Shown: positions 48,023 to 63,090 of the stretch, in pieces
How the letters are laid out: every line of letters begins with the position of its first letter
Numbering within the stretch: position 1 is the first letter of the stretch
Source of the DNA: Crossaster papposus
Lineage: Eukaryota; Echinodermata; Asteroidea; Velatida; Solasteridae
Assembly (NCBI GenBank): GCA_037893245.1
Contig: JBAIAA010000261.1
Location: 2,604,001-2,668,000 of the forward strand
Length of the DNA stretch: 64,000 bases
Reading direction: 5' to 3'
The notes under the pieces: generated by a model
The model's input: only the letters and a program-made list of their open reading frames with translations
Told to the model about the DNA's origin: nothing
Databases searched by the model: none
Position numbers and translations under genes: made by a program

Positions 48023-48188
48023 TTAAGTAGCACATCCTTCTCCGTTGACCAGCTCACTTTTCACCTCACCGAGTGCCTTGTTAATGTTTTGCCATTTTTC
48101 TTTTTTCTTCTGTCGTATTTCCCTCTTCAGTTGCTGAGCCGTAGGATACGAATAGAAAAATGTCCTGTCGTCGATAATGTACTTGTAA
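48023..48188 (-). CDS. C3-like last exon: end of the C345C/NTR domain
   Basis: The minus-strand acceptor is CTGGTATAG and the exon enters in phase 2. It encodes YKYIIDDRTFFYSYP, then a basic helix (KREIRQKKKEKW) and ends GEGCAT before TAA. In C3 family proteins the NTR domain ends with a cysteine a few residues before the C-terminus, as here. Confidence 0.9.
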
Positions 48189-49041
48189 CTATACCAGGTA
48201 ATTGAGAAAGAATACAAAATAATAATGATAATACACTTTAACAGGCCTGGCATCAAAAACAAACAAAATAATGGCCCCTGAACCAGCATTGATCAAGCAT
48301 CATGTATAAAGTCAATGATTGGCCAAATAATACATTCAACAGACAACAGTCCTATGGTAAATTGAAATACAGCAGTACGTGTGTACGTGAATAAAGCACG
48401 CGTCAAATGTTGACACTGTACGCACGCGCATGTACGCGTAAAGCGTTTTTATCAACGAGCGTTATTTTGCATTTTTGAGCTTGGCATTTTAAAACAAATG
48501 CATGTATGTGTCGTTAGCTCATTGCACAGGACAGATAAGAAGTTGTGAGCTATACAGTCTGGTGTCAAAGTATGGGTAGTTATAACAACACATATTGAAG
48601 AGACTGGGAACCATGCATCAGCTAAAATGTGGCTCCTGAACACAAACACAAAAGTTTATTTCATTAAAAGGTCCATTAACAGCGGCCATCCCCTGGTAAT
48701 TATCACGCAAGGAAGACCGGCTCCTGACACTGTTATTACCTAATTGCTATTTGCCTAACGTTACATTAATATAATTTATTACATTGTTGGTTAATTCAGG
48801 TAAAACAAATTCCATGGCCAAATTCCATAGCTCTGCTATGTTTAGGAAAAATAGTGCTCATTTGTAGCGAAGAATTTTGGTTTCTGCGCATGCGTAAATC
48901 CCATATGAGATTATATGCTTACAGGGTTAGCACAGTATTTTTTTGCTAGCATTTATTAGCACAAAATGATGATTGTAAGCAAGGAATCATTGGATTAGCA
49001 GAGCCATAAAATTGGGCCCAGACCCAATATGTGGTACTCAC

Positions 49042-49180
49042 ATGTCCTCTCCCATATCATCCTTAGTTGGTAACCCACCACTACCGATTACTAGGTACCG
49101 CGTCATCTCAAGCTTTGGAGTATCACAGCTTTTGCTCTTCACAAAAACTCTTGTTGCGCCCCTGTACACATGATCCAACC
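49042..49180 (-). CDS. C3-like exon: C345C/NTR domain core
   Basis: Phase 1-2 exon with acceptor GTATCAG and donor GTGAGT. It encodes VYRGATRVFVKSKSC and the hydrophobic YLVIGSGG strand. The pattern matches V-x-x-G-x-x-R-x-F-[IV]...C of C3 NTR domains. Confidence 0.92.
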
Positions 49181-49937: not shown

Positions 49938-50021
49938 CTTGTTTCAGCGGGATGTCGATTGTCATAGTGTAGAACTTGAAATTGCCTTTCTCCTCCTCAG
50001 CGGTAACGCTCACCTCGTAGG
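49938..50021 (-). CDS. C3-like exon: linker to NTR, beta-strand rich
   Basis: Phase 1-1 exon, 84 bp, with acceptor ACTCAG and donor GTGAGA. It encodes YEVSVTAEEEKGNFKFY followed by TMTIDIPLKQ. It corresponds to the YVYKTRLVKVQLS-like part of vertebrate C3. Confidence 0.92.
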
Positions 50022-51971: not shown

Positions 51972-52061
51972 CAAAATGCGCTTTTGTTGCACAGGCCTTT
52001 TCAGTCATCTTATAAGCATCATAGTCGCGTGCTTTGTTGAATGGATCCTGTGCACATTTTC
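51972..52061 (-). CDS. C3-like exon: cysteine linker, second part
   Basis: Phase 1-1 exon, 90 bp, with acceptor ATAACAG and donor GTAAAT. It encodes KCAQDPFNKARDYD...KACATKAHF. The two cysteines match the E-N-C and K-A-C cysteines of C3 family linkers. Confidence 0.88.
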
Positions 52062-52460: not shown

Positions 52461-52519
52461 CTGCAGCACATACGCAGGTGTCGTCAACACATAATTTCCC
52501 AAGCAAGTTAGAACCCTCC
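52461..52519 (-). CDS. C3-like exon, 3' part after the transposon
   Basis: It encodes EGSNLLGKLC followed by VDDTCVCAA. The cysteine pattern L-C-x4-C-x-C-A is that of the C3 family linker. The donor is GCAAGT, a rare GC-AG intron. On the 5' side the codon is interrupted exactly at the transposon target duplication (CAA at 52522-52520). If the element is spliced out, the acceptor is TACAAG ending at 52519. Confidence 0.85.
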
Positions 52520-53216
52520 TTGTAGTGAGGTGGATTAAGGAAAAATTCGTTACACCGTGGACAAAAGCACCATTTTTTCACCAAAGTATCAGTTTGACCC
52601 ATAGATTTCAAAAAAGTCATGCTCCAAAAAATCTGGGAATTGTTAACCTTTAATTACGTCATTATGACGTCATAACCTCTTGTTATGTAATAAAGCAAAC
52701 GCAAATGCCATGGTGGGATTTCTACATGCCAAAATTATGTTTCTGAGGTCAAGGAATTCAATGAGGGTGGTATTAGTTTGTAAAAAAATAATATCCTTTA
52801 TGGTGACTACATGTATATTGATGTAAATATGACGTCATCATCGTCAATACTACACAAATAACACAAAATTTGAAAAAAACAGATTTTATTGCCGTTTTTT
52901 CACCAAAATGCTATTTTGTTTTTGTTCAAAATGGTAACAGTATAATTACCGTGGCACTGATCTACAAGATACCATGATGTCATTATGATATAATAAACAA
53001 TAACTATCAACCAAAACAATAACACATTAACACAATGAAACACAATGATTCTGACCGGATATAGGTTATGACAGGATATTTATTATATTGAATAGCGCAT
53101 ATAACAGTTGGTTTGTGTAGACGAGGGATTGTAGTGTGTTACCATTTATTTAACTGCATCTTACAGTTACATTTATTAGGTGTTTTTTTTACAGTTTATT
53201 ACTATTAACCACCTAC

Positions 53217-53429
53217 TTAAAGGGGCAGGATCGTCGCTCAAAAAATTGGCGTTCTCGGGAAACCTGTACCCAAGTCAATCAATGCTGGTCTATTTGTTTG
53301 ACGTCACAACTGTTTAAGTCTAAAGCGTTTATACCCAGTGAACTGCAAAGATATGTACATGTTGTTTGGCAAGTTAGGACATACTTCCTTCAATTATTGT
53401 TAAACTCATAGTAATCCTGCCCCTTTAAA
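53217..53429. mobile_element. 213-bp MITE nested in the 4.9-kb transposon
   Basis: TTAAAGGGGCAGGAT at the left and ATCCTGCCCCTTTAAA at the right form the TIRs. It has no coding capacity. Confidence 0.75.
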
Positions 53430-53592
53430 GTCCGTTTTGATTTTAAAGTTTGTTATTGTTCAATAATGAACAGTCTCAATTTCTGGTATTAAAACATTTT
53501 AGATTAATGTTTTGATGAAGCAAGCATCACATCTTCCAATTATTTTAGAGCTTTCGTAATTACTGTATCGTTTCAGATGACTGAATTAATTA

Positions 53593-53886
53593 TCAATGCC
53601 CAAACTGATTATTTTTGACAGTCGCAACTGCAAAGGTGCAGGGTAGACCAGCTCTTGAGCACTTGCAACGGTTGACACAGCCACGCTCAGATTTGCAGCC
53701 GCATTTGATGAGCTCGGTGCAGGCTTTTGCTGCTTCGGGGATAGTCATCCAAACAGGCTTCCACTGGTTGTCGTTCATGGTCCACCCCCATCCATCAGGG
53801 GATGGAACCATTGGTAGCGCTTGAGGACTGGTGGTCCAAATGCCTCCTTGGTAGACCACTCTCTTTACATGTTGGAGCAAGGCATC
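53593..53886 (-). pseudogene. Transposon gene, exon 3: C-terminal CXC motif
   Basis: It starts after acceptor CTATTTAG in the sense DALLQHVKRVVYQGG. It continues with PSPDGWGWT and a cysteine cluster (KCGCKSERGCVNRCKC, GLPC) of CXC/tesmin-like type, then stops at 53593. Proteins with this end are common as repeats in marine invertebrate genomes. The upstream exons are frameshifted, so the gene as a whole is dead. Confidence 0.8.
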
Positions 53887-54002
53887 CTAAATAGATGAAA
53901 AAGTAGAGATACAAGTTGGATAAAATGGAACATGATATTTATTTTTTCAAACAGGATGAAGAATGTTTACATTATAATTATATATAAAAACATAACTATT
54001 AC

Positions 54003-54586
54003 CTGGGCGGGAGGGATGTTTTCCAGTCCGCAGTTTTTCTTACAGAAGAGTTCTCTGCGGGCATCATTGACCGAATCCAGGCTACTTGTTACGTCGTACA
54101 TGAGCACCGTGAACCGTTCAAGGCACTGCATAATTATGTGGGGATGACAGGTCAACTTGTTGAAATGGGTTTTCAGTCATTGAAAGTAATGACTGGGTTA
54201 CATCAGGATATGATTTCCAGGTTTTCCAGGTTCTCTTTTTCCCCTTATTAAGAAAGCAAGAAGTAGTGTCACATCCAGTGAAGGCGTGGAACAGAGGAAG
54301 AGCTCGGGACCTGTCACTTCCAAGGTTGTTACAGATGGTGTTGATACTATAGTGACAAAAGCTCTTGCCCATACCGAACGCTACCCATATGTCAATATCA
54401 GGATGGTGCAGGAGAAAAACTGTCCAATGAGTATAATGACGATGTCTGTGTCTACTGTGCGGATCAGAATTTTCTTGAAATCCCTGTCCACTGCGTGCTG
54501 AAGGTGAACTACAATCCTTGTATCGGCTTCTTTATGTGTGCATTCCAACATTGGCTGAGTACTTCCCTTTGAAATAACTGAGGTAC
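54003..54586 (-). pseudogene. Transposon gene, exon 2: XPG/PIN-like nuclease motifs, frameshifted
   Basis: The acceptor is TACATAG and the donor GTAATA. It contains the family motifs HKEADTRIVVHLQ, RTVDTDIVIILIG, IDIWVAFGMGKSF and FHAFTGCDTTS. The conserved Asp residues resemble an XPG/PIN nuclease. The frame shifts between ILIG and IDIW and again before LERFTVLMYD, so no intact product is possible. Confidence 0.8.
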
Positions 54587-54700
54587 CTATGTAAGACAGA
54601 CATGATTTCAATTTAAGGTAATCAGTTTTTGTTTATTATTTGTTTATATTCTATAACATTGCAAACTAATTTCAATGCATTGAAGTTACAACATACAAAC

Positions 54701-55213
54701 CTGAAGTAATATACAGCACCTTGTTATGAGGACAGTCTTCGGTATAGCCATTGTCTGTGACAGGAGCGAAAACAGTTCTTCTTTGTTGGAAGAATCTCGG
54801 AGGAAGTCTTTTGAATTTGCTGGCATCTTAGTCTGAGGCGTCACCTTCCGACGCACACCACTGCCCCGCTTTTGCCGAGTTGAATCTTTGATACTGCTTT
54901 GCAAGTACCTGTCCCAGACCAAATCCAATCTCTGAACTTTCTGCAGTTCACGACGGAGAAAAGGCTGGAAAACGTTTTCTGCATAATCTGCAAAGGTGGA
55001 GGCAGATGACGTTGACAAACTGTGGACCAGAGCAGCACCATCAAAGATCTTGCAATCAAAGTACTCTGGAGGTTCGGGTTGTCCGTCAGTGTCTAGGCGG
55101 CTCAGCAACTTGGACTTTGCACCTGATATGCGAAGTTTGCCAAAGTTGGAGATTGACGGAGGATAAGGTTGGTTTTCATGGCTGAAGAATACACTTGGAT
55201 CTCCATCACGTAG
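54701..55213 (-). pseudogene. Transposon gene, exon 1 (visible part)
   Basis: It begins after acceptor AAATCAG with LRDGDPSVFFSHENQ and continues PPSISNFGKLR, KIFDGAALVH, LVWDRYLQSS and KRGSGVRRKV. A one-base shift near 54750 leaves the family ending NKVLYITS in another frame. The 5' part of the gene is not found; the 55259-56786 element is inserted just upstream of this exon. Confidence 0.8.
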
Positions 55214-55258
55214 CTGATTTGCAATATATAGAAGATTATGTCTCGAACGCTAATATTA

Positions 55259-56786
55259 TGCTAGGAGTCCACTGGGCCAGCGCCAGTTGATGCCAGTTTG
55301 CGCCAATGCATTTTGCTGTGGCGCCTAGTGTCGCCAATAAGGTGCCTATGGTGGCGTGTAGTGGCTCAAACTGCCTCCCAACTGGCTCGTGGTGGCCCGT
55401 AACGGCACCAAATTTGAATGTGGCGGCAAGAAAATTTCAAAATGTTTGAAATTTTCGTCGCGCCATTTGCATCGAGCAATCAGCGCCAAGTGTCAGCCAA
55501 GTGGCACCAAATGGCGCGAACATATCGCCCTTTGGCGCAAACAATCCGCCTATTGGAATCCACTGGAATGTAATGGCGCGCGCCAAGTTGCGCCAATGAG
55601 ATTTCGCGCCACATGGCGCCAAGTGGCACCTTGTTTGCGCCACTACGCGCCAAATAAATCCAACAGAGGCGGATAGCCCGCCAAAGCGCGCTTTGTGCAG
55701 TGGCGCGAGCCAAACGGCACCCGATTGGTGACTACTTCGCGCCAAATGCCACCTGGTTGCCCGCCATTCGGCGCCACTTGCCGCCTATAAAAGCAGGGCG
55801 GCATCGCAGGACTTTCTCACACAACTTTCAAGATTCGGCGACTCGGTATTTATACAGGGTGTCTCTAAAAAAAGTATACCCATTTTCAAATTCATATTAT
55901 TGCAAAATTACTGAACATTTCAGAAAAAGGCAAATGTCTGTTGAAAGGGTAGAATGCCCTCTGTCCAATGGTATAATGTTCATTATGTCATTGTCATGGA
56001 TGACTGAACTAACAAGACAGTTATAAGAGGTACTGAAATCAGCACTGTGACAAGTTGGGATGATAAGTCAGGCATGAGACTAAGATGCCAGCTATGCATT
56101 AACAGGAATGATAACCATCACCTTGCATTTGTCAAGAAAGGAACCCTGTCATAATTTTTCCAATGTGTTCAACCTCAAACAGCAAAGGGATTTGGCCTTA
56201 AAAACACCTGCCGTGAGCTTCGTCACTCAAGTAAAACCAACTTGTCACAGTGCAGATTTCAGTACCTTTTTATAACTGTCTTGTTTGTTCAGTCATCCAT
56301 GGCAATGACATAATAAACCTTATACCATTGGACAGAGAACATTCTACCCTTTCCACAGACATTTGAATTTTTCTGAAATATTCAGTAGTTTTGCAATAAT
56401 ACTAATTTTAAAATGGGTATACTTTTTTTTAGAGACACCCTGTATAGTCGGCAAGTAGCGCCAAGCGGCGGCAAGTTCAAACCAATTTGGCGACCTTTGG
56501 CACAAACTAATCACCAAGTGGCGCAAAGTAGCCTTCTATTGGCGCGAATGGCGCCAACAGGGTGAATTTTGGAATCAAATGGCCGTGTAATGGCGCAAAC
56601 TGGCGCAACATTTTGGAGCAAGCCGGGTGGCATTTGGCGCACGCCATATGGCACCCAGTTTATTCCACTTGGCGACACATGCCGAGCGGACATTAATTCG
56701 GCGCCACAGCGAGCCACTACGCGCCAATCACATAATCTTTGGCGCGAACTGGCACCAACTGGCGCTGGCCCAGTGGACTCCTAGCA
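55259..56786. mobile_element. 1.5-kb TIR element made of TGGCGCCAA-like motifs
   Basis: TGCTAGGAGTCCACTGGGCC at the left is inverted at the right end, with TA on both sides. The interior consists largely of variants of TGGCGCCAAGTGGCGC, themselves palindromic. It has no transposase. It is inserted in the 4.9-kb transposon and carries a further element at 55855-56442. Confidence 0.85.
55855..56442. mobile_element. Mariner-like MITE with about 220-bp TIRs, third nesting level
   Basis: CAGGGTGTCTCTAAAAAAAG and its complement are the ends, flanked by TA. The arms extend inward (GTATACCCATTTT, TGTCCAATGGTATAA, GACAGTTATAA) to about 56060 and 56235. TA duplication and end sequence suit Tc1/mariner-type elements. 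Confidence 0.87.
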
Positions 56787-57437
56787 TAACGGACACAATT
56801 AATCCTAACAAATGTGTTAATAGTTCATGTGTACTTTGATCTCAAAAACTGTCTGTGGTTTGGTCATCATAGGACATTTTCGACACCAGTTGCCCAAGAA
56901 ACAGTTTACAAAGTTATATATGGAAATTGCATGGTCTGAAACTGAAACAAAACCATTTCAATCCAAAACCGAGTTATAATTACAAATGTTACTAACTTTG
57001 GTCTGCTAGCCATCACAACCATGAGCTGAAATTGAAACATGTTAACATATTTTAATACAAACCACTGATTTTCCCACGTTGATGATGATGTATTTTATTC
57101 CATCATATGCTAATAAAGACAAATTTAATACAAAAATGATGAAACTGTTTGTTTCAGCGCAACACAAACGTTGCCATGCGATTCCTTGGCCTTTGATACA
57201 TATAATTCGCTACTAAAATCACTTGCCTCGGCATTATATAACTAAAAACATGCCGTTTTAAGGAAATGGCGGCCATTTTGAATATATTACGTCATAATTA
57301 GGTCAAGGTCATTGCAATTTTTTTGGAGCATGGGATTTTATTAATCTACATACCCATAGGAGTCTTTAAAAAAAAAATTGTGCTTTTGTCCACCGTGTCA
57401 CGATCTTCGTGTTTTTTGTCCTTAATCCACCTCACTA

Positions 57438-57468
57438 TTGGGACTGATGAACTTCAGACACTCCTCCG
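57438..57468 (-). CDS. C3-like exon, 5' part before the transposon
   Basis: Acceptor CTCATAG leads in phase 1 into TEECLKFISP and the first two bases (AA) of a Lys codon, where the transposon starts. E-x-C-x-x-F-x-x-P is the C3 family linker start. If the element is spliced out, the frame needs donor GTGGAT at 57430 (adding Asn-Ser-Glu). The stronger-looking GTGAGG at 57435 would shift the frame. Confidence 0.85.
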
Positions 57469-57699: not shown

Positions 57700-58285
57700 C
57701 TTGCCTCTGGTTAGTCTTGGTTGCAAGATGTCCTAATCGCAGTATGCAGCGCGCGTAGGCTGCCGATACAGACACCTTCTAATGCACGCTGTGCGTAGAC
57801 CACACGTAGACCACGCTGTGACCTTCAAATAGGTCGTCTTTGCTAAATCACATAATCGCTCGGAAAATTTCAAGCAGAATTGTGTCACATTTGCAGGCAC
57901 ATGACGTTACGTGAATAATCGCATGACGTAATATGAATAATCGCATGACGTAATATGCATAATCGCATGACGTAATATGAATAATCGCATGACGTAATAT
58001 GAATAATCGCATGACATAATATGAATAATCGCATGACGTAATATGCATAATCGCATGACGTAATATGCATAATTGCTGACTCATTGGTCAAGTTTATGTT
58101 ACGTCACGTAATTTTGCATGACTGTCACACGCGCATGTAAATGCGACACAATTCTGCTTGAAATTTTTTGAGCAATTATGTGAGTTAGCCAAGACGACCT
58201 ATACGAAGGTCATGACGTGGTCTATACAGCGTACGTTGGCGGCCAACACGCGCTGCATACTTGCAACCAAGAGTAGCCTCCGGTG
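57700..58285. mobile_element. Foldback element with a central TGACGTAA tandem array
   Basis: The arms (TCTTGGTTGCAAG..., TTCAAGCAGAATTGTGTC...) are inverted over about 180 bp. In the centre (57900-58075) a 22-bp unit GCATGACGTAATATGAATAA repeats about eight times. It lies in a C3-like intron. Confidence 0.85.
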
Positions 58286-58338: not shown

Positions 58339-58870
58339 GGCCGAATACATAAACAAACTAGCAATTGCTTATAAGCAGAAGCACCGAGCTAAAGCAAAAG
58401 CTTATCAAGCAGAAGCAAAAGCAATTGTTTAAAAACATATACATAACCTTTTGCATTGACTAACAGCTTTTTCTTAAGCTTGCCTAGCAAATGCCTAGTC
58501 CGAGTATCATATGCCTAGGCCGAATACATAAACAAACTAGCAATTGCTTATAAGCAGAAGCACCGAGCTAAAGCAAAAGCTTATCAAGCAGAAGCAAAAG
58601 CAATTGCTTAAAAACATATACATAACCTTTTGCATTGACTAACAGCTTTTTCTTAAGCTTGCCTAGCAAATGCCTAGTCCGAGTATCATATGCCTAGGCC
58701 GAATACATAAACAAACTAGCAATTGCTTATAAGCAGAAGCACCGAGCTAAAAGCAAAAGCTTATCAAGCAGAAGCAAAAGCAATTGCTTAAAACATATAC
58801 ATAACCTTTTGCTTTGACTAACAGCTTTTTCTTAAGCTTGCCTAGCAAATGCCTAGTTCGAGTATCAAAC
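58339..58870. repeat. 179-bp tandem repeat, three copies
   Basis: GGCCGAATACATAAACAAAC starts units at 58339, 58518 and 58697, each ending near GCCTAG(T)CCGAGTATCA. The units are nearly identical. It lies in a C3-like intron. Confidence 0.93.
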
Positions 58871-58961
58871 ATATGTGTTGGTTAACGAAGCCATCTCCGA
58901 ACCAACGTCTGATATATGCGGACATATTTGACCCGCATAGCAGCCAATCGTACTTACTAGG

Positions 58962-59064
58962 GTTGTAGTAGTCATACACGTGGACTGCCACCGGTTGGAC
59001 CTTACCGACCATAGACTTGCGTTCGGCACGAAACTGAACCTGAACTGCTTCTGCGCCGGGAATC
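58962..59064 (-). CDS. C3-like exon: end of the receptor-binding domain
   Basis: Phase 0-1 exon with acceptor TTAACAG and donor GTAAGT. It encodes IPGAEAVQVQFRAER and KVQPVAVHVYDYYNP. V-x-V-Y-x-Y-Y-[NE] is a hallmark of the end of the C3/C4/A2M receptor-binding domain. Border positions may be off by a base or two. Confidence 0.92.
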
Positions 59065-60528: not shown

Positions 60529-61833
60529 CTGTCGGCACAGAACCCAAAACAACATCAAAATAAAGATTGAGATTTGGGGAAATTGAAAAAACAAAAACAT
60601 AAAAATCCAGGAAATAATGGCCAAAAGGTTTTTGGATCACAGAGGGCCCAATAATAACTAGGGGTCTTTGTGTTATTAGCGAGTAAACACTTTTGTTGCT
60701 ATCAGTTTGTGAACATGTTTTGCATGTGACTGTCCAAATTCCCAAACATCAATATTCAATGGCTAAAACACTATCTGTCCTCATGCTAAACATGTTTACC
60801 ATGTAAACATGTTTATTACAAACTGATAGAAAGAAAGTGTTTAGAAAAATATTTACTTGCTATAAAACCCATTTTTGTTGCAGTGTACCCATGTATTTTG
60901 CTCTACATGTATATTATAACCTTTACATGTACAGAGACGTTTCCTGGTAAACTGTAACAAATTCTAGATTTTAAAGAAATTTGAAGGGAAACAAATCTGA
61001 CCCTTACCGGTATATTCCTTAATTGTTAGAAAAAATACAGAAAACTGCCATGTACAATTATTACGGTAAATCACAACTAAGGCCACAAACAAGGATTACT
61101 AGGGATGTGCATCATACCAGTAGTTTGGGAACCGGGTACCCAATTAATATAAACACAAGTTTAATTTCAGTCAAGTTTTAAGTGTGGAAAATGATTATGT
61201 TCAGGGCAAATAATTGAAACTAGTATTCATGTACAATTATCAACTAGTGAAACGACAACAAATTTGAGGTTGGCAATTTTGCTGCAAACAAATCCAGGTA
61301 GGTCGGGTGACCGTAAACACACATTTATTTTTTTTGGCCTAAATAGTTTTCTTATTCTTACAAACACTGTCAGCTGCACTGAGACAAAAACAACATCTAA
61401 ACCTCATCTCAATCCTAAACCAGTAGTGTTTATTACGTGAACTTCAAGGTTAGGATACACCATTGATAATTGCTTGAATTATCATGAATGGATGGATTTG
61501 GGGGTTGTATTTTATAGAAAATATCGTTTGACTGACCTGTCCGAAATTTTACAATCATGGATGCCGAGAAAAACATGAAATACGGCGTTCGTTTTCACCC
61601 GGCGTCGGGCAGTTATTCTTATGTTATTTTTTGGTTTTTTTTGCGATCGCCCTTCGGCGATCGCGAATATTCTTTTTTTAAATTCTATTTATACAATAAT
61701 TCCCGGATATCTAGCGCAATCATTTTGCTGGATATCAGATGTTTCTTAATAATTCGGTAGTAAATATTTTTGATATCTGCAAATGGTGTATCCTACCTTT
61801 AAGCTTCAACAAGTATTTTTTGTTTTTGCTTAC

Positions 61834-61921
61834 GGCTTTTAGATCCTCCACAACAGCTTTGTAGCCGGTGTACAGTCCCACATCTAAAATAGCCATGCCG
61901 GTTTTCTTCCCTCGCAAGTAT
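61834..61921 (-). CDS. C3-like exon: receptor-binding domain core
   Basis: Phase 2-0 exon with acceptor CAAACAG and donor GTAAGC. It encodes YLRGKKTGMAILDVGLYTGY and KAVVEDLKA. M-[AS]-I-L-D-[VI]-x-L-x-T-G-[FY] is the defining A2M_recep motif. Confidence 0.95.
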
Positions 61922-62968: not shown

Positions 62969-63090
62969 CTGACTTGAATGTTGTACCACAGAAACTCCTT
63001 GTCATTGTCCTCAACCTCGTCCTCGTTTATCACGGGTTCGAAGTCACACTCGCCCAAGTCGGGCTCAGGGATGTAGTATGTAGCCTCGAA
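62969..63090 (-). CDS. C3-like exon: start of the receptor-binding domain
   Basis: Phase 0-2 exon with acceptor TTTATAG and donor GTGGTA. It encodes FEATYYIPEPDLGECDF, an acidic stretch and FLWYNIQVR. In C3 the equivalent region reads Y...E-x-C-x-x-F...I-C-T-R just before the ILD motif. It is the most upstream C3-like exon recognised. Confidence 0.87.

Follow-up and report, generated by a model that had tools for sequence, protein, structure and literature searches.

A recently active composite DNA transposon in the linker exon of a 5'-truncated C3-like gene copy of Crossaster papposus

What becomes of a coding exon when a DNA transposon lands in it, and can the newcomer serve as an intron from the outset? 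This question is raised by a 64,000-nucleotide stretch of the Crossaster papposus genome (assembly GCA_037893245.1, contig JBAIAA010000261.1, here C261, C261:2604001-2668000; hereafter the window), in which the exon linking the MG8 and C345C parts of a complement C3-like gene on the minus strand is interrupted by a 4,915-bp element (Table 1). Positions refer to the window unless a contig is given. The recent insertion of a DNA transposon into an exon of this C3-family gene was confirmed by comparison with other places in the same genome, and the evidence favors a harmless insertion in a spare gene copy over the birth of a new intron as the more likely reading.

The linker exon begins at an acceptor at 57468 (CATAG/CGGAGG, slashes marking exon borders) and ends at a donor of the GC type at 52461 (GCTGCAG/GCAAGT). 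The element within it is flanked by a 3-bp target-site duplication (TSD), TTG on the plus strand and CAA on the gene strand; removal of the element and one TSD copy yielded a continuous 90-bp exon (31 + 59 nt) of phase 1-1 that contains EECLKFISPKEGSNLLGKLCVDDTCVCAA. This exon was uninterrupted at seven homologous places in the genome, four of them near-identical (C99, C709, C46, and C310; 91-99% identity over 182 bp) and three more distant (a second locus on C99 and on C709 and, most distant, C56). The GC donor CAG/GCAAGT was kept in six of the seven, with GT on C56. A genome-wide search (1.02 Gb, 1,841 contigs) with a 242-base empty-site query revealed eight places, namely four whole sites (C46, C99, C709, and C310), two partial sites at the second locus, and two halves in the window. 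These halves overlap by 3 bases, and a split with such an overlap occurred only at the window locus. The uninterrupted homologs and the empty-site search therefore indicate that the element struck an exon, not an intron.

Two other accounts of the site were considered and ruled out: a pre-existing intron, which none of the seven homologs has, and a TSD arising by chance, which the empty sites in the homologous exons and in the genome-wide search exclude. The original prediction, made from the sequence of the window, had described a DNA transposon within a coding exon of a C3-like gene, a 4.9-kb element with a 3-bp CAA duplication whose excision restores a 90-bp exon in frame, and an exon rather than an existing intron as its target; the inverted termini, the TSD, and the empty sites bear this out, and its coordinates proved correct in all cases verified.

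Table 1. Coordinates of the element, the interrupted exon, and the remaining exons of the C3-like copy in the window
Feature	Position	Strand	Basis
Composite DNA transposon, 4,915 bp	52523..57437	.	Inverted termini, same ends elsewhere, 2/4,915 differences to C646 copy, empty sites
Left terminal inverted repeat, TAGTGAGGTGGATTAAGG...	52523..52578	.	Inverted-repeat comparison
Right terminal inverted repeat, ...CCTTAATCCACCTCACTA	57372..57437	.	Inverted-repeat comparison
TSD TTG, left copy	52520..52522	.	Homologous exons, other element copies, empty-site search
TSD TTG, right copy	57438..57440	.	Homologous exons, other element copies, empty-site search
Interrupted MG8-C345C linker exon, 5' part, 31 nt including TSD	57438..57468	-	Comparison with uninterrupted homologs
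Interrupted linker exon, 3' part, 59 nt, ends in GC donor	52461..52519	-	Comparison with uninterrupted homologs
Nested element with 75-bp inverted termini, within main element	55256..56789 (borders approximate)	.	Inverted repeats
Second nested element, CAGGGTGTCTC termini adjoining TA, inside first nested one	55851..56446 (borders approximate)	.	Inverted repeats
Decayed protein gene of element, putative transposase, several frames	53596..55249	-	ORF listing and protein searches
First MG8 exon, coding part matched	62971..63078	-	tblastn
Second MG8 exon (A2M_recep)	61798..61908	-	A2M_recep scan and tblastn
Third MG8 exon (A2M_recep, PF07677)	58958..59063	-	Pfam scan
First C345C/netrin exon	51972..52061	-	Homolog comparison
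Second C345C/netrin exon	49938..50018 (borders approximate)	-	Homolog comparison
Third C345C/netrin exon (NTR, PF01759)	49041..49178	-	21.7 bits, just below cut-off 21.9
Last coding exon, stop next	48026..48154 (start approximate)	-	ORF listing and homolog comparison
ORF, open reading frame.

The element has the features of a cut-and-paste DNA transposon: terminal inverted repeats (TIRs), of which the first 18 bases are identical and a further 32-bp pair of arms is 91% complementary, and a TSD of fixed length, 3 bp wherever it occurs (8 of the 10 end pairs). Its protein gene matches relatives in more than one frame. Two protein searches returned 35 and 61 relatives, none with an informative name and one bearing the name of a pump that looked unrelated, and neither Pfam, a PDB sequence profile, nor Foldseek provided a usable transposase identity for the protein. 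The element is probably a non-autonomous composite DNA transposon and may be of the Academ type, a label for which the fold evidence is weak. The possible likeness lies in the 3-bp TSD and in a weakly indicated XPG/XRN-like fold of the protein; a 3-bp TSD and an XPG-like nuclease domain are marks of Academ. The protein gene of the window copy is, however, decayed. Academ elements form a DNA transposon superfamily (Kapitonov and Jurka 2010, as cited in PMC4455052).

The element was recently active. Over the whole 4,915 bases, with the nested inserts counted, a copy on C646 shows 2 differences from that in the window, which marks the element as young, and at five other right ends the full score was reached across 200 bp. 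Ten pairs of ends, including the window pair, were assembled by position; eight have a perfect 3-bp TSD and two (C116 and C88) have none. These other copies bear out the borders assigned to the element. The composite element, with its nested passengers, moved very recently as a single unit. An assembly artefact fusing unrelated sequence might be suspected at a locus read from an assembly with several near-identical contigs, but the perfect TSD, the termini common to other copies, and the exact empty sites render it exceedingly improbable.

Of the nine other insertion sites read at both ends, one lies in coding-derived sequence, a C-type lectin copy on C674 that had already decayed, with stops and frameshifts, and whose family (PF00059) showed 25 matches on two contigs (both halves flanking the insertion counted). 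A Pfam scan of the flanking ORFs at six of the nine sites (the C55, C123, and C92 flanks lay outside the scan) gave nothing over the cut-off. The C674 flank ORF had no Pfam match over the cut-off although it is coding-derived, and the flank scan can thus miss coding sequence; the window site was picked for being exonic and so does not count toward exon enrichment. In the region C674:1452000-1627000, C-type lectin genes that carry mucin-like NPVDTEST repeats form a tandem family, and a decayed member of it contains another copy of the element.

The interrupted gene is, on its exon content, a 5'-truncated C3-like copy with MG8, linker, and C345C exons. In the window copy A2M_recep (MG8) scored over the Pfam cut-off and NTR just missed it, and the best PDB matches of the joined exons were cobra venom factor (E 4.5e-18) and C3 (E 1.2e-12), across MG8 and C345C. 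The order MG8, linker, C345C is that of the complement C3/C4/C5 family, whereas the TED and CUB exons of that family were not found for this copy. With tblastn, the window and 30 kb upstream of it yielded no TED or CUB exon in a search in which the MG8 exons did match; the 126 kb by which C261 extends past those 30 kb were covered by the TED profile search only. In that search (PF07678) all 47 first-look candidates were scored and 36 matched. C99 and C709 were among the seven contigs with matches, the GCGEQ motif having been read on C99 only; C261, C46, and C310 had no match. With the first MG8 exon present but TED and CUB exons not found, the window copy is regarded as 5'-truncated.

This truncation bears directly on a further reading, in which the insertion recently turned a working complement gene into a null allele. 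Retention of the element would place a stop inside its terminus, and near-identical element-free copies exist, but with no TED or CUB exon found the locus probably held no functional C3 that the element could have disabled, the TED-bearing copies being on C99 and C709; a null allele in this sense is unlikely. The recent exon hit in a C3-family gene, which the original prediction had presented as a recent null allele or an introner in an immune effector, stands, but an intact effector is not supported, as the copy is 5'-truncated with no TED or CUB found. In the intron that precedes the split exon are a 22-bp tandem repeat (8.3 copies, 57900-58080) and a 179-bp tandem repeat (3 copies, 58339-58867), the copy numbers of which seem to vary among contigs.

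Of the three contigs with the truncated copy (C261, C46, and C310), C261 alone carries the element; the insertion happened very recently, and near-identical copies differ in whether they have it. Sequence from C46 agrees at 99-100% with two stretches tested on C261 that lie ~98 kb apart, whereas C310 agrees at 99% with the upstream stretch and, in fragments, at 81-98% with the downstream one. Overall the similarity forms a mosaic, C261 being nearest to C46 (and C709) in one stretch and C310 resembling C99. Either C46 or C310, if not both, is probably the other allele of C261. On C46 the second MG8 exon of the truncated copy has lost 1 bp (C46:~68590), a deletion that is absent from C261 and C310. 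A single 1-kb match (98%) links the end of C99 to C261 sequence lying upstream of the truncated copy; it suggests a tandem order in which the truncated copy would lie ~466 kb downstream of the TED-bearing one. Beyond the window, a tandem array occupies C261:2443000-2498800, where a 1,500-base probe has 12 matches at 97-100% and further partial ones; it occurs also on C709, C99, and C310, and one of its ORFs looked hyalin (HYR) repeat-like by eye.

Could the element be spliced out as an intron? Candidate donors were scored with a position matrix, which ignores the second donor base of the GC site. Only one frame-keeping pair was found at the two element ends, joining donor GAG/GTGGAT (57431/57430) in the 5' terminus to acceptor CTACAAG/GAG (52518); the predicted product has K replaced by NSE. 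Terminus and TSD form the acceptor together with a single base of the exon, and it has a pyrimidine-rich tract, TTTTTCCTTAATCCACCTCACTACAAG. The donor scores 0.99, under six of the seven natural donors of the gene (1.77, 3.81, 4.40, 4.70, 6.34, and 8.95, the last being the GC donor) and above the seventh, that of the first MG8 exon (0.94 on C99, -0.18 on C261), so that it is weak yet inside the gene's own range; 16 of the 289 GT sites in the element, this donor counted, score at least 0.99. Both donor options are as originally described; the adjoining A/GTGAGG scores higher (1.38) and shifts the frame.

De novo intron gain by this route has precedents, in Tc1 (Rushforth and Anderson 1996) and En/Spm (Menssen et al. 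1990), which were spliced out of exons according to the reference titles in PMC4120734, and in codon-adding Introners, as mentioned in passages of PMC9860276. Here, however, the 5' exon would measure just 38 nt, and 13 poly(A)-like hexamers lie within the element in gene sense (7.6 expected; 13 was reached in 26 of 500 first-order simulations). The insertion is also too recent for much splice-site selection, the competing donor outscores the in-frame one, and the gene copy is truncated, which together make intron gain improbable.

Other outcomes were considered for a transcript of this copy. Retention of the element would lead to an immediate stop, after FISPNSEVD, within the terminus. If instead the split exon went unrecognised, the third MG8 exon would be joined to the first C345C exon, and since the 90-bp linker exon is of phase 1-1 and the neighbouring borders are intact, the frame would be kept with the loss of 30 residues, including four cysteines. 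We regard such skipping as a possible if doubtful outcome, since the truncated copy may be untranscribed.

The insertion, the empty sites, the youth of the element, and the lack of TED and CUB exons within the searched sequence are observed directly. They fit a scenario in which a recently active composite transposon, with a 3-bp TSD, a decayed protein gene, and two nested passengers, would have been mobilised in trans and entered the linker exon of a 5'-truncated C3-like copy. Any transcript would then stop or be cut short inside the element, or would pass over the linker exon, which is symmetrical, without a change of frame. As neither a thioester nor a CUB part turned up for the window copy, the insertion is most likely near-neutral. 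We thus hold it probable that this is a near-neutral, recent insertion of a probably non-autonomous element into a truncated C3-like copy, present on one of the three contigs with such a copy.

Several points qualify this reading. The truncated copy might be expressed, for example within a chimeric gene. With the element and one TSD removed, the eight exons on C261 (278 codons) read through with neither a stop nor a frameshift. Their splice borders also seem intact, except that 3 bp are inserted at the donor of the first MG8 exon, as on C46 and C310. In 278 codons C261 differs from C99 by 11 nonsynonymous and 4 synonymous changes, C310 differs from C99 by 13 and 4, C261 from C46 by 2 and 2 (243 codons), and the TED-bearing copies C99 and C709 from each other by 3 and 2 (164 codons); the exons used had no stop codons, the gapped MG8 exon of C46 was excluded, and three C709 exons lay outside the fetched stretch. 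The C261-C99 differences speak for the near-neutral reading, but the counts are small, as the C99-C709 pair also shows, and do not establish that constraint is relaxed in the window copy. C261, C46, and C310 (and C99 and C709) may be alleles or duplicates. Finally, in two of four relatives of the element's protein 67 and 150 residues upstream of the matched part have no counterpart in the element, but the others have only 2 and 25 residues ahead of the match, so that the protein gene may, but need not, have lost its start.

The median lengths of Introner families range over 30-654 nt and their copy numbers in a genome from 5 to >2,000, and in animals and land plants only two groups, both animal, have them (PMC9860276). 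Like Introners, the element is a DNA transposon in an exon with TIRs, a TSD, and possible splice sites in terminus plus TSD; unlike them it measures 4.9 kb, and its splice sites are predicted. No second insertion in an intact exon was found among the nine other sites, six of which were scanned with Pfam. Tc1 and En/Spm resemble it as cut-and-paste transposons in exons whose termini offer splice sites, but belong to other superfamilies, and splicing was observed there, by title, and is predicted from sequence here. Literature searches on exon insertions spliced as introns and on transposons in C3 genes turned up nothing that we recognised as the present case.

The most far-reaching version of these ideas, which we consider very unlikely, is that an Academ-like terminus already served as donor and, with the TSD, as acceptor, providing an instant 4.9-kb intron in a C3-family copy still made as a short MG8-C345C protein, with the states before and after the gain coexisting in near-identical copies within one genome. 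If splicing were true, the locus would be a rare animal instance of a transposon-born intron; otherwise it is an ordinary insertion in a spare gene copy. In either case, the filled and empty sites within one genome form a clean before/after pair for distinguishing splicing, skipping, and transcript end.

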